This document shows, one piece after another, positions 8,281-25,242 of a DNA stretch of 32,226 nt. This DNA is from Defluviitaleaceae bacterium. GTDB taxonomy: Bacteria > Bacillota > Clostridia > Lachnospirales > WRAX01. Both the position numbers and the translations under genes were made by a program. Each line of letters begins with the position of its first letter. The first letter of the stretch is position 1. Below the pieces are notes generated by a model. The model saw nothing but the letters and a program-made list of their open reading frames with translations. It was not told the origin of the DNA and searched no databases. The stretch is from contig WRBJ01000019.1 in the NCBI GenBank assembly GCA_009784615.1, forward strand, positions 1-32,226. The letters are read 5' to 3'.

Positions 8281-8994
8281 CTAAATTTGCGCCGTGTATT
8301 GGTATGGCAAAGCAATATGTGTACCCGCTACACTAATATCTACCAAATGTTTCAAACTATCCTTTAAAATAGCCGTTTGCATTTCCTTATCATTAGGCGC
8401 ACCTGCATTTGCCCCCATTGGCACAAGGGGTGCAACAGCCCTTGGTGCACCATTTTGTCTTGTAACAGGCGGCAAAGCCGAAATTATAATCGTGGGTATG
8501 CCCGCTTGCTCTATAGCTCTTTGCACGACGACCGCCGTGCGGTGGCATGTTCCTCAGCCGCCCGTTAGCACAACAGCGTCTACGCCATTTTCAATCAAGC
8601 ATTTTGCAATCTCTGGACCTGTTTGTTTTGCAAAAGCCTCTTGGTCGCCGCCACCGCCCATAAAGCCGTAATGAAGGGGTGCGGCAGCCTTGATAAAGCC
8701 TTCCGCTACAAGCTCGTTAAGCCTATCTACTGGAAACATACAGTTGATGTCTTTGTTGACATCTGCATTGTCGTACCCGCCGTGGGATACCATCATTTCG
8801 TCCACGCTGGCACTGTTTGGCACAACGCGGTAACCAGTGTCACCCGCCAAATTAAACCTTGTGTCGCTTTTTAAATGAACACCTGCGGCAGTAGCCAAAG
8901 CCACTGTCATATCCTTTAATTCCTTAGTAACCGCCGTCCAAACGGGCGGTGGTGTTATTGGCACAAATATCTCTGATTGTAATCCTTTTATCAT
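8281..8994 (-). CDS. prdB: D-proline reductase subunit PrdB, selenoprotein
   Basis: This is the selenocysteine subunit that, with the pyruvoyl subunit from PrdA, reduces D-proline to 5-aminovalerate. Two open frames (8557-8994 and 8281-8553) are joined by an in-frame TGA at 8554-8556. Reading TGA as selenocysteine (residue 147) gives one 237-residue protein with the family active site GGUGTCHR, a Sec-x-x-Cys motif. Length and Sec position match the known PrdB (about 240 residues, Sec near 150). GGGGGDQEAFAKQTGPEIAK-like and PLVPMGANAGAPNDKEMQ blocks are also family-typical. A 5-bp hairpin with a 3-nt loop begins 10 nt past the UGA. Conventional gene calling would truncate or split this gene. 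Confidence 0.96.
8531..8556 (-). promoter_or_regulatory. prdB Sec codon with candidate SECIS hairpin
   Basis: The UGA is at 8556-8554 on the minus strand. After 10 nt come ACCGC and GCGGT (8543-8531) around loop ACG. Bacterial SECIS elements lie just 3' of the UGA within the coding sequence, as this one does. The hairpin is seen; SelB binding is inferred. Confidence 0.65.
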
Positions 8995-13028: not shown

Positions 13029-14780
<1,752 letters not shown>

Positions 14781-21880: not shown

Positions 21881-21909
21881 ATCCCCATCAGCGTTATGCT
21901 GATGGGGAT
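21881..21909 (+). terminator. Terminator of the ldcA-NlpC unit
   Basis: ATCCCCATCAGC pairs perfectly over 12 bp with 21898-21909 around loop GTTAT, followed by AATTTT. It also faces the end of the specificity-subunit region from the minus strand. Confidence 0.85.
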
Positions 21910-21913
21910 AATT

Positions 21914-22058
21914 TTAAGCAAATATAATTTTGTACATTGCGGATATAATTTTTTCAAAGCGAGCTTTTTCGTCTGCTATGACAAGTTTTTGCTGGGCTTT
22001 GATATATGCCGCCATATAGCCATAATCAGGCATTGGTTCTTGCAGGGGTGAGCAAGGA
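21914..22058 (-). pseudogene. Detached C-terminal helix of a specificity subunit
   Basis: On the minus strand this segment encodes QEPMPDYGYMAAYIKAQQKL and a charged helix ending at TAA (21916-21914). The pattern DYxYMxAYI matches the conserved helix inside the adjacent specificity gene (NWDYMTAYIRKLELERL). It has no start of its own. It is in continuous open frame with the sequence that follows the CA repeat in one of the two alternative frames, so it is either the C-terminus of one phase variant or a recombination remnant of another S gene. Confidence 0.7.
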
Positions 22059-22074
22059 TTACCTGTTTGCGTAT

Positions 22075-23169
22075 TTAAGCAATTTGATAAGGTTGGTTTT
22101 TTCGATTGCTTGGATGTAGCGTTGCATATATTGGAAATCTGGCGATGTGTGTGTGTGTGTGTGTGTGTGTGGTTGAGAGAGGTAATTGGATTAATAGGTC
22201 GTGGCTCTTGGAAGAACGCAACTTGTATCCGTAGCTAAACCTCCCCTTTAATGCTATATTTATTGAGCCGCATAAATATAGCATTACTTCCTTTGGAAGC
22301 GGGCTAAATTCATTCCAATAAACACCTGTATCATCTCCTGCAGCAAAGTTGTAACTGCGGTAAAACGCATTACCAAAAATATCTATAGTTATAGAGTTTT
22401 TTGGAAATTTCTTTGCTTCTTCATTGTTAATATAGCTCACAATTCCAGTATTGGTTACGCCTGACATAACAAATGGCAAATTGCCTGTTTTATGGTCGTC
22501 TTTTTTAAGCCTAGCGCCTTGTTCAATTTTATCAAAAAGTTTACCAATCTGAAACTTGCCCCATTCGGGTTGGTGGCTTAGTGCGGCTTGGTCCTCGGGG
22601 GTTAGCTCGTGGTTGTCAATATCTGCCGTATGCCCCATTGCCGCAAGGCGGGCTTTGGCTTCACGCTTAATTTCTGCCAGTCTTTCCAGCTCTAGTTTGC
22701 GGATATAGGCTGTCATATAATCCCAATTAGGCTCACTTTTTTTGTGTATTGGGAGTTTTATAATTGTATTTCTTGCATTTTGTCGATTGAATTTTGTTCC
22801 ATAATTATATAGTCCTTTAACTGCTCGTCGAAATGATGCAACAAAGAACAAGTATGTTTGCGAATTCCAAAAATCAAAATAATTTATGGGATACATCCCT
22901 TGTACGTGTGAGTAACCCACGAAAGGATTGGGTTGATAAAAAATCGCTTCGTCTGTTGTGGTGTCAGAAAAAGTTACCATATTGCCATTTTCGGTGGGTG
23001 ACAAAGAAACAAAATTTGCAATTCCATTGTTTCTTGAACTGTTACTGACGACAGGGGTTTTGCCTTCGGTCGAAAATAAGTCCCAATTAGTTAAGCCGTA
23101 ACTTTTGGTTGGGCTTATTTCAAACAAATCACCAATCCTAAATTCGCCCCATTCAACCTCTTTTTGCAA
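22075..23169 (-). CDS. Specificity (S) subunit of a BcgI-like restriction-modification system, phase-variable C-terminus
   Basis: The 364-residue protein has two target-recognition half-sites, each opened by a like phrase: VEWGEFRIGDLFEI near the start and PEWGKFQIGKLFDKI near residue 205. The first ends in a conserved helix (DYMTAYIRKLELERLAEIK) and linker. The second should end likewise, but (CA)13 near the 3' end encodes a THTHTHTH run and the present frame then gives an unrelated tail ending YQIA. The other two frames after the tract contain specificity-type helices. Length is near that of the BcgI B subunit (about 340). The start is probably the TTG at 23169, 21 nt after the methylase stop, with a poor ribosome site, so coupling is likely. 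Confidence 0.88.
   Translation of the reverse strand: MQKEVEWGEFRIGDLFEISPTKSYGLTNWDLFSTEGKTPVVSNSSRNNGIANFVSLSPTENGNMVTFSDTTTDEAIFYQPNPFVGYSHVQGMYPINYFDFWNSQTYLFFVASFRRAVKGLYNYGTKFNRQNARNTIIKLPIHKKSEPNWDYMTAYIRKLELERLAEIKREAKARLAAMGHTADIDNHELTPEDQAALSHQPEWGKFQIGKLFDKIEQGARLKKDDHKTGNLPFVMSGVTNTGIVSYINNEEAKKFPKNSITIDIFGNAFYRSYNFAAGDDTGVYWNEFSPLPKEVMLYLCGSINIALKGRFSYGYKLRSSKSHDLLIQLPLSTTHTHTHTHIARFPIYATLHPSNRKNQPYQIA
22146..22171. repeat. (TG)13 dinucleotide repeat inside the S-subunit gene
   Basis: Thirteen uninterrupted TG units (CA on the coding strand). A change of one unit shifts the frame by 2 nt. With 13 units translation ends at 22075. With 14 or 11 it reads SPDFQYMQRYIQ and ends at 22059. 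With 12 or 15 it stays open for 76 codons to 21914. Confidence 0.95.
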
Positions 23170-23192
23170 GATGGTTGGGTCAAATGGGGCTG

Positions 23193-25202
23193 TTATTTTC
23201 CCAGGTCGCCCTCTTTATCGGGTGTCCAGTCTGTTTTTAACAGCTGGTCAACCTCCCACGCCATATAGTCTGCCACGGTTTTTCTAAAATCCGCTTCGGT
23301 TGGGCGTGTGTCAATTATTTTGTGTTTTTCAAAGTTCCAATCGTTGCCGTGTTCTCTGCCTTCTAATTTTATTATATCCTCTACATATTCCTCTTTTGTA
23401 AATATGTTAAGATATTTTTCGCCATAAAGCACAAGGTCTACAAGCTCTGCATAGCGGGCTTTGGCGTTGTCTACATCACGCAGGTTTATAGACTTGTCTT
23501 TTGTTTTGCGATTGCTACGTTTGTATCCGTCGTTGCGAAAGTCGATAAAACGCACAGGCTGTTTTGCTTCGTGCGGTTTTGCAGCATCAAAAACATAAAC
23601 TGAAGTTTGCACGCTGCTTTTGCCAATAAAAACATCAACAGGCATTTTTATGCTTGCCACGAGAGTGTTATTTTGAAGTATGTTTTTGTTTATTTCTGTT
23701 GCTTTTCCGCTACCTGCACTATCTTGAACTATTATAACGGCACGCCCTTTTTTCATCATAGAAAGGGCTTTTTTAACAAATATCATACCATTACCATCGG
23801 CAGAATACGGCGGGTTTAGCAAAAACACATCGGCTGGGAAATCGCCTTCATTTTCAAATTGTGTTAGAGAGTTTGCTTGCAAAATTCTTGATGAGCCGTC
23901 ACCGACCAAGAACATATTAAGAATAGCCAACATTTGTATATCTGGGCGAATTTCTATACCTAGTAGTTGGTTTTCTTTAATATGTTTAATTTTTGTTTTA
24001 CGTTCACTTTCGTTGGTGATGTTTTGTGCGTCGTGTATTGCTTCGTTAAGTGCAGAGATAAGAAAGCCGCCGCTACCTAGGGCAAAGTCCCATACATAGC
24101 TATCTTTATTAACTTTAGCAAGTTTTACCATTAAATCTATAATATAGCGAGGGGTAAGCACAACGTCGTTTGCTTCATCATCTGCTAACGACATCCACGT
24201 TGTAACTTCGTTATACACAGCCCCTGCAAAGTCTATCATTTTATATTCTACAAATTGCATAATGTTTTCTTTAACTTCACTATAAATAGATTTTAAGACG
24301 GTTTCTGTGGCTGTAGTTTTTGTGTTTATTGTAGTGTCGTGTTTTAATGTGCCAGTTAAGCCGTGCATAATGTGATTTAGTTTGTCGGCTGGTAGATTGC
24401 GGCTTTGCAAAACGGAACGCACCTTTCGCAAAATAATGTCGGCATCTGTGTTGTCTGTCATATGCGAGCCTTTAAGGTCTTCGATTTTAAGGGGTCCATC
24501 GGCATCTCCAAGACCGGCAAGCACCATACCAACAAAAATGCTTATACGCCATTTTGCATCTATTTTATACTCGCTCCACATTTTTTCATTAAGAGAGGAA
24601 AGTGCGGCTTTTACTTGGTTTTCGTTTTGCAGGCGTATTTTTTCTTTTTGTTCTTCGGGTATATGCAGAGTTTTTATTGCCTGCATTGTGCCATCTAAAT
24701 TTTCGGCATACAAAAAAGAAAGATTATTAGTAGTTATGTAATGAATAGCTTCGCCGCCTGTTTCGTTGCTTAGCACGTAGCACTTTACTTGTAATTCATA
24801 TTTTCCAAATGAATTTTCTTCACCACAAGCACCGATAACGAGGTAATTTTTGTATTCTGTATCACGAAAACAGTTTTTTGCATAATACAGCGCACCGTTT
24901 ACAGCAAATTTGTTTATGTTGCTTTTGCCGCTGTTGTCCATAAGACCGTCCTTTAGCTTTTCCATATCTGCAAATTTTGCTTTATTTTCCACAATGCCAA
25001 ACCACACTTCGCCATTGTGGCGAAGTGTGAAATGGGTATCGGGTATGCCGCCGCCTGCTCCGCCTTGTTTGGAAGGGTTTTTCTTAAAAGATGCTGTTAA
25101 GGCGGTGTTTACGCCTTCATCCCGTTCAAGTCTATATTCTAGTTTAGTCTTTTTAAGTTCGTTAGTTATTTCGACAGTTACGTTACTTTCGGATTTTTTC
25201 AT
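23193..25202 (-). CDS. BcgI-like fused restriction endonuclease/N6-adenine methylase
   Basis: This 669-residue protein joins a nuclease to a DNA methylase. Near the N-terminus GGGIPDTHFTL (Asp55) and WFGIVENKAKF (Glu72, Lys74) form a PD-(D/E)xK nuclease motif. A helical type I-like M region follows, then motif I VWDFALGSGGFL (about 371-381) and motif IV LLNPPYSADG (Asn463). Length and order match BcgI A (about 640 residues). BcgI-type enzymes cut on both sides of a bipartite site and need the separate S subunit encoded next. I use ATG 25202, with AGGAG upstream. No separate HsdR gene is present, which supports a fused type IIB-like system over type I. Confidence 0.9.
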   Translation of the reverse strand: MKKSESNVTVEITNELKKTKLEYRLERDEGVNTALTASFKKNPSKQGGAGGGIPDTHFTLRHNGEVWFGIVENKAKFADMEKLKDGLMDNSGKSNINKFAVNGALYYAKNCFRDTEYKNYLVIGACGEENSFGKYELQVKCYVLSNETGGEAIHYITTNNLSFLYAENLDGTMQAIKTLHIPEEQKEKIRLQNENQVKAALSSLNEKMWSEYKIDAKWRISIFVGMVLAGLGDADGPLKIEDLKGSHMTDNTDADIILRKVRSVLQSRNLPADKLNHIMHGLTGTLKHDTTINTKTTATETVLKSIYSEVKENIMQFVEYKMIDFAGAVYNEVTTWMSLADDEANDVVLTPRYIIDLMVKLAKVNKDSYVWDFALGSGGFLISALNEAIHDAQNITNESERKTKIKHIKENQLLGIEIRPDIQMLAILNMFLVGDGSSRILQANSLTQFENEGDFPADVFLLNPPYSADGNGMIFVKKALSMMKKGRAVIIVQDSAGSGKATEINKNILQNNTLVASIKMPVDVFIGKSSVQTSVYVFDAAKPHEAKQPVRFIDFRNDGYKRSNRKTKDKSINLRDVDNAKARYAELVDLVLYGEKYLNIFTKEEYVEDIIKLEGREHGNDWNFEKHKIIDTRPTEADFRKTVADYMAWEVDQLLKTDWTPDKEGDLGK

Positions 25203-25242
25203 AGCCAAAAATCTCCTTCTAAAATATCAAGTGATGTTTTCA

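Follow-up and report, generated by a model that had tools for sequence, protein, structure and literature searches.

The specificity (S) subunit of a BcgI-like restriction system appears to end in one of three ways, depending on the length of a CA repeat within its own gene. From sequence comparisons, we consider it rather probable that the repeat acts as a slipped-strand contingency switch which chooses the CR2 helix of S, and that S itself is produced through a -1 frameshift at the end of the RM gene. Slippage between two CR2 tails is likely, a view which rests on a comparison of three genomes. The broader proposal is held more tentatively, as one that could well be true: a conserved epigenetic switch in which slippage picks between CR2 helices encoded in overlapping frames on a frameshifted RM-S product, with states that differ in assembly, methylation or specificity. 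We infer that the tract slips in the population, that the tails are expressed, and that assembly and methylation are affected.

The analysed window is a whole contig (C19; 32,226 nucleotides) of the 1.58-Mb genome of a Defluviitaleaceae bacterium, a metagenome-assembled draft of 43 contigs that is 86.5% complete. Judged by its genes, the locus is a BcgI-like (type IIB, RM + S) restriction system, for which bilateral cutting and (RM)2S assembly are predicted. A single RM polypeptide carries both the endonuclease and the N6-adenine methyltransferase, with matches to PADLOC REase_MTase_IIG (1.3e-161, residues 9-663) and Pfam N6_Mtase (4e-26). The S frame is separate, contains two target-recognition domains (TRDs) and the conserved helices, and matches Methylase_S (3.8e-26, in two stretches) as well as Specificity_II. 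It is the one S gene of the BcgI-like kind in the source genome, and a genome of the same genus (G001, 68% complete) contains no copy. The coordinates of the features are listed in Table 1.

Table 1. Features of the RM/S locus, with positions in the window.
Feature	Position	Strand	Details
RM subunit, fused restriction endonuclease / N6-adenine methyltransferase	23193-25208	-	671 aa from TTG; C-terminal end DLGK, then stop
Slippery heptamer G GGA AAA	23196-23202	-	RM TAA stop (23193-23195) directly after
Stem-loop, putative frameshift stimulator	23146-23190	-	13-bp stem; 5-nt spacer from heptamer
Stem 5' arm, GCCCCATTTGACC	23178-23190	-	
Stem 3' arm, GGTTGAATGGGGC	23146-23158	-	
S (specificity) frame, 13-unit state	22078-23190	-	frame -1 relative to RM
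TRD1 of S	about 22726-23190	-	
CR1 helix between the TRDs, WDYMTAYIRKLELERLAEIKREAKARLAAMGH	22627-22725	-	model helix 156-188 and CR1 profile score
TRD2 of S	about 22180-22599	-	ends in LLIQLPLSTT
(CA)13 simple sequence repeat	22146-22171	-	boundary of TRD2 and C-terminal helices
Helix A (CR2-A), frame a	22059-22145	-	n = 11, 14, 17; 28 codons and stop
Tail B, frame b	21914-22144	-	n = 9, 12, 15; linker, helix B, stop
Helix B (CR2-B), inside tail B	21917-22030	-	
Tail c	22075-22143	-	n = 10, 13, 16; 22 codons and stop; no CR helix
Terminator-like hairpin	21881-21909	-	12 pairs, 7 of them G-C; T-rich tail

The (CA)13 tract near the 3' end of S, to which the initial annotation had drawn attention, is far beyond chance: 100 dinucleotide-preserving shuffles of the window never reproduced it, it is the sole dinucleotide run of at least five units in the window, and no other CA run of such length occurs in the 1.58-Mb assembly. 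Reading frames were recomputed for n = 8 to 17 CA units. When n = 2 mod 3 (11, 14 or 17), S continues for 28 codons past the tract, giving SPDFQYMQRYIQAIEKTNLIKLLKYANR and a stop. When n = 0 mod 3 (9, 12 or 15), a 76-codon tail reaches PDYGYMAAYIKAQQKLVIADEKARFEKIISAMYKIIFA and a stop; its first part is a linker of 38 residues, rich in S, T, N and P, which comes from the out-of-frame reading of the helix-A DNA. When n = 1 mod 3 (10, 13 or 16), the product is ARFPIYATLHPSNRKNQPYQIA and a stop, 22 codons without a CR-like helix, and the assembled state (n = 13) thus has this tail c. The open lengths of 28 and 76 codons were given exactly in the initial annotation, whose observation is confirmed and whose interpretation is supported in part. 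The frame-b stop (21914-21916) lies 4 nt upstream of the terminator-like hairpin, and therefore tail B makes use of the whole transcript; terminator-like sites in the region are as many as the shuffle mean, so that the argument rests on position and not on count. Overall, as in a contingency locus, a repeat beyond chance, with a unit that is not a multiple of three, lies within the gene, and its alternative frames lead to different products (helices A and B) that are conserved in three genera.

In S subunits of type I and type IIB systems the domains follow the order TRD1-CR1-TRD2-CR2. In these subunits CR1 and CR2 pair antiparallel, and the C-terminal tails that the methyltransferase subunits contribute complete a four-helix bundle with them (cryo-EM structure of BsaXI, PMC11997821). 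The C-terminus of S in 34 homologues from bacterial genomes has the form LP..PDY..METFISAIQKLVIKDVVLYADRKIAATK, and profiles of CR1 and CR2 were made from the homologue helices with the three focal genes left out. Helix A scored 24.7 bits with the CR2 profile and 15.0 bits with the CR1 profile; the corresponding scores of helix B were 30.6 and 3.6 bits. By these scores helix B is a canonical CR2, and helix A is a shorter CR helix, intermediate between the CR1 and CR2 types, which bears out the earlier suggestion that both out-of-frame tails are of the conserved helix type. A chance match of either helix is ruled out by the profile scores and by their recurrence.

A comparison with relatives, which the initial annotation had also suggested, covered one genome per species. 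It shows the arrangement of two tails behind a repeat again in two genomes from other genera of the same family (G015 and G006), whose tracts at this position are G9 and G7. In G015 (L039/L052), whose RM is 73% identical, G9 stands immediately past LLPI; the assembled n = 9 leads to TPDYKYMSAYIKAQQKLAIADVAGCFEKQIAATEF in a 453-aa open frame (helix B), and the frame entered at n = 10 leads to YPDYQYMSSYITVLEKQNLLKLLNYVNARL and a stop (helix A). In G006 (L041/L050), whose RM is 60% identical, G7 stands immediately past the LP motif of TRD2; the assembled n = 7 frame leads to TPDYDYMAAYIRVQQKLTIADIAA (helix B), and the next frame to IDYVYMHKYMHSIETLQLLRVWRYANARL and a stop (helix A). Both genomes are assembled in the helix-B frame, and in both the end of helix A runs into the first helix-B codons in another frame. 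Helix A has homologues in the two genomes, and tail B matched them with E values of 3.5e-23 (G015) and 2.9e-21 (G006), both being part of the query alignment. From gene to gene the TRDs and the repeat unit are different, while the pair of helices is conserved.

A repeat at the TRD2/CR2 boundary occurs in 3 of 46 S genes, exactly the two-tail ones, and in 0 of the 43 others (one-sided Fisher 1/15180, not corrected for relatedness); the three two-tail genera are mutually related and hence are not independent cases. The G7 tract of G006 is short for a fast contingency tract. No further two-tail genes were found with the CR2-B profile in 295 order-level genomes or with the CR2-A profile in the family. 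RM searches of the order and class retrieved relatives without the second helix. A search of viral contigs gave no relatives, and a search of phages gave weak TRD-level matches only.

An alternative that is unlikely, and still deserves serious attention, is a plain on/off switch, in which one tail is functional (likeliest A, or else the canonical B) and the other is a relic of recombination of TRD2-CR2 cassettes. Helix A is attached to TRD2 directly, like the CR2 of the homologues, and tail B needs its linker of 38 residues; in a relative (L012) helix B by itself forms the usual C-terminus; and the TRDs differ in the three genera, so that cassette exchange has occurred. However, both helices are kept in all three genera, among which DNA identity is 48-63% for helix A and 56-70% for helix B. 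Two of the three genomes are assembled in frame b, and therefore B is no mere relic, while A is kept there though unread. Frame b is, moreover, open across helix A in 3/3 genes, and it should often close if helix A alone were under constraint. When the helix-A protein was fixed and synonymous codons were redrawn from the RM/S codon use of each gene, the chance of an open frame b through helix A was 0.034 for the source genome, 0.0027 for G015, and 0.297 for G006; with uniform codons it was 0.050, 0.017, and 0.34, respectively. Differences among the three genes fall on frame-b codon positions 1/2/3 as 28/26/57 in helix B, the third-position pattern of a coding helix. For helix A the counts by codon position are 35/33/48, a weak third-position excess, which is expected if two frames constrain helix A and is by itself no proof of selection. 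Therefore, purifying selection on helix A rests on the conservation of its motif and on the profile scores.

Under the proposed exchange of helices, tract length modulo 3 would pick the CR2 helix that ends S: A joined directly, B on a flexible linker, or none. S would thus have three states, namely CR2-A, linker + CR2-B, and no CR2. CR2 would lie antiparallel with CR1 and, together with the C-terminal tails of RM, form the bundle that holds (RM)2S. Since CR2 would hold this bundle, assembly should be altered or lost when the switch changes state, and methylation and cutting along with it. The AlphaFold model of the state-B S from G015 has a mean pLDDT of 83.8 and pTM 0.74, with pLDDT of about 92-97 in the CR1 and CR2-B helices (93-95 in CR1); for the source-genome S in the 13-unit state pTM is 0.54, the distal CR1 has 65-75, and the tail has pLDDT 34-52, although the two models are of different proteins and the comparison is therefore suggestive only. 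The alignment of the G015 model placed LPF of the linker on the conserved LP; the linker region is unreliable, and the helices alone were used. Foldseek matches of S were HsdS subunits and the S chain of BsaXI (8w0p_C).

The 13-unit protein may be inactive, or it may be differently assembled rather than off. It is distinctly doubtful that an S lacking CR2 is functional through a different assembly or at a different site, in the manner of higher BcgI-type oligomers and half-S proteins, so that the switch would alter oligomeric state or specificity. In its favour, the authors of the BsaXI structure proposed that a missing or skewed CR2 pushes BcgI-like enzymes into larger assemblies (PMC11997821), and in HpyUM032XIII the methylated motif is CYAN7TRG with S1 alone and CYAN7TTC with the S1-S2 fusion (PMC4450513). 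However, half-S proteins are without TRD2 as well, no direct precedent was found for a TRD2 without its helix, and the tail-c model is of low confidence. A decayed gene or an assembly artefact, meaning a consensus or sequencing error in the tract or frame or else a dying S, is very improbable. The assembly is a draft, and in a relative (G011) both RM and S are visibly broken; yet RM, the remaining S and the frameshift element are intact here, and G015 and G006 show the same layout with other repeats.

The second part of the proposal concerns the junction of RM and S, CTG GGA AAA TAA, where S continues in the -1 frame. S has no ATG near the junction, and its sole TTG lies 23 nt past the RM stop. 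The stem-loop after the heptamer folds with -22.9 kcal/mol (z -3.2), and the RNA covariance model R1 matches 23142-23202 (-) with an E value of 6.6e-12. An X XXY YYZ heptamer stands at the same site in 41/42 distinct RM/S junctions (GGGAAAA in 29, GGGAAAG in 8, AAAAAAG in 3, and AAAAAAA in 1). The element is present in Neisseriales, Campylobacter, cyanobacteria, Pasteurellaceae, Bacteroidota, Treponema, Lentisphaeria, Chloroflexi, Actinomycetaceae, and Clostridia, the loci lying within the sets L004-L069, L089, L092, L093, and L095-L100. In all junctions with the element, the second frame is at -1. Many have no ATG, GTG or TTG near the overlap and some have a TTG or ATG; internal initiation of S may operate in some members.

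The stem is better conserved as a structure than the protein would demand. In 38 aligned sequences, 93% of cells are paired and 7/12 pairs are altered on both sides; the covariation score was reached by 0/500 shuffles, and pairing fell to 34-48% when the partner was shifted by 1 to 3 columns. The mean contiguous stem is 12.8 bp versus 5.98 (sd 0.24; maximum 6.83 in 2000 rounds) after synonymous recoding of the S frame, and therefore the stem is no by-product of the protein. In 399 genomes of the phylum, the covariance model found two more RM/S junctions and had no match elsewhere at E 0.001; it also matched an RM/S junction on an Acinetobacter haemolyticus plasmid. The hairpin has no matching family in Rfam 15.

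Relatives in lambdoid prophages of E. coli, found in 31/5426 genomes, have two types of junction. One has A AAA AAG and a hairpin of unrelated sequence (ACTCCCG..CGGGAGT; z -4.7 and -3.7), and the other has GGGAAAG and the usual hairpin. RefSeq places the start of S in these prophages about 70 nt downstream or splits S; in E. coli SCU-104 the -1 frame of S is intact (395 aa) despite the RefSeq annotation. These prophage systems (L095-L100) adjoin the Q antiterminator and hok genes. L051 (G264:C136) has a true in-frame RM-S fusion at the junction site, and in the divergent L035, L061, L066/L070, L. salivarius, and L. gasseri the overlapping second frame is instead at +1 with an ATG.

The most economical interpretation of these comparisons is that -1 programmed ribosomal frameshifting at GGGAAAA-TAA, with the hairpin, probably yields both RM and an RM-S fusion in what would be a set ratio, a mode of expression that the initial annotation missed. 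Therefore, it is probably an RM-S fusion that ends in the phase-variable tail. In EcoKI an M-S fusion with added M gives a working enzyme (PMC3510504). Two other origins of S were considered. A start at TTG 23169 is possible and probably not real, as homology of the S frame extends upstream of this TTG as far as the RM-S overlap, and in G264 RM and S are fused in frame at this spot; transcription slippage at the junction was rejected, since GGGAAAA is too short, and would be applicable at most to the A7 members. The open-licence literature on programmed frameshifting and restriction fusions gave no earlier report of an RM/S frameshift element, although absence is not proof. As for the CA tract, slippage of ribosome or RNA polymerase giving several tails from one DNA is the least credible reading, for although the same gene very probably frameshifts at its other end and G-runs can be slippery, CA repeats are no known ribosomal slippery sequence, no conserved stimulator lies past the tract, and the repeat unit varies among genera as expected for DNA slippage.

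The initial annotation knew of no BcgI-type case with alternative tails. Phase-variable BcgI-like S genes are in fact published: H. pylori HP1471/JHP1364 have G13/G14 between the TRDs (PMC3936762, PMC4209511), and in HpyUM032XIII a G12/G11 tract in S, likewise between the TRDs, alters the recognition site (PMC4450513). As far as searched, what is new is the alternative CR2 helices and the frameshift element. The H. pylori systems HP1471/HP1472 and JHP1364/JHP1365 resemble the present one in having a BcgI-like RM and S, a simple sequence repeat that changes how much of S is made, and an S that lacks a usable start codon past the RM stop, a point made by Krebes et al. (PMC3936762, PMC4209511). 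In contrast, their tract lies between TRD1 and TRD2 and not at TRD2/CR2, alternative CR2 helices are not described, and no frameshift element was proposed, S having been expressed with an added start codon and ribosome site. HpyUM032XIII is likewise BcgI-like, and a change of one base in its G tract alters both the S product and the recognition site; however, it alternates between half-S and full S, whereas here the main states would keep both TRDs and the last helix alone would change. In the truncation switches of type I HsdS (NgoAV, Hpy99XVI), which PMC4450513 names as similar cases, tract length alters the length and specificity of S (PMC9577141 for M.NgoAV), but these are type I systems with a separate R, and they are not known to have a second helix in another frame.

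BsaXI (type IIB) is comparable through its (RM)2S assembly, which is predicted here, its TRD1-CR1-TRD2-CR2 order and the fold match of S (PMC11997821); it differs in an RM with knob and paddle and in showing no phase variation. In the EcoKI fusion, obtained by artificial removal of a frameshift, M-S plus free M is active, and a -1 frameshift would produce the same combination here; natural EcoKI relies instead on translational coupling through an overlap of 1 nt (PMC3510504). The element is like dnaX-type -1 frameshifting in its X XXY YYZ heptamer, which is A AAA AAG in some members, and its downstream hairpin, and unlike it in joining two subunits of a restriction enzyme, with a hairpin that has no counterpart in Rfam.

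Known simple-sequence switches in restriction systems are either on/off or cause loss of a target-recognition domain, whereas an exchange of helices is proposed here, the second helix lying in another frame of the same DNA and being kept in three genera despite the change of TRDs and repeat unit. If this is true, the locus is a natural three-way test of CR2 function in type IIB enzymes. The frameshift element would account for the synthesis of S in a widespread family where S has no start codon of its own, including the H. pylori systems that worked only once a start codon had been added, and is a possible means of fixing the ratio of RM to RM-S; it also implies that annotations of this family routinely give S genes a wrong start or break them into fragments.

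Other S genes of the family show further repeats. In three of them the tract lies between the TRDs, as in H. pylori HP1471: G10 in Gallibacterium anatis (L036:5656-5665), G12 in G264 (L051), exactly at the contig end, and (AG)8 in the divergent Actinobacillus porcinus gene (L035:5463-5478). S is split between the TRDs in the two Pasteurellaceae genes (L036 and L035), which are candidates for more phase-variable S genes. In EcoR124, 4-aa repeats change the spacing of the TRDs. CR1 heptad (7-aa) tandem repeats, for example ELEAERIA x2 and ELEEERVA x4, vary in number in L004, L009, L010, L023, L028, L033, L056, and L093, and a change in their number could alter TRD spacing. At L012, an Oscillospiraceae locus of termite-gut type, two S genes flank the RM gene, both with a C-terminus of the helix-B type. 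At L040 (G011:C25), in a relative from the same family, RM is broken and S is truncated past TRD1, and the frameshift element is kept (R1 match).

Elsewhere in the window, the frame at 8302-8994 (-) has an in-frame TGA in VVLTGGUGTCHRTAVV, resembling the selenocysteine site of the D-proline reductase PrdB, and PrdA-like, proline racemase-like, and RnfC-like frames lie nearby. A large serine recombinase-like ORF of 536 aa (13029-14639, -) interrupts an apparent ABC substrate-binding protein gene region, and a second, small resolvase-like ORF lies at 1215-1805.
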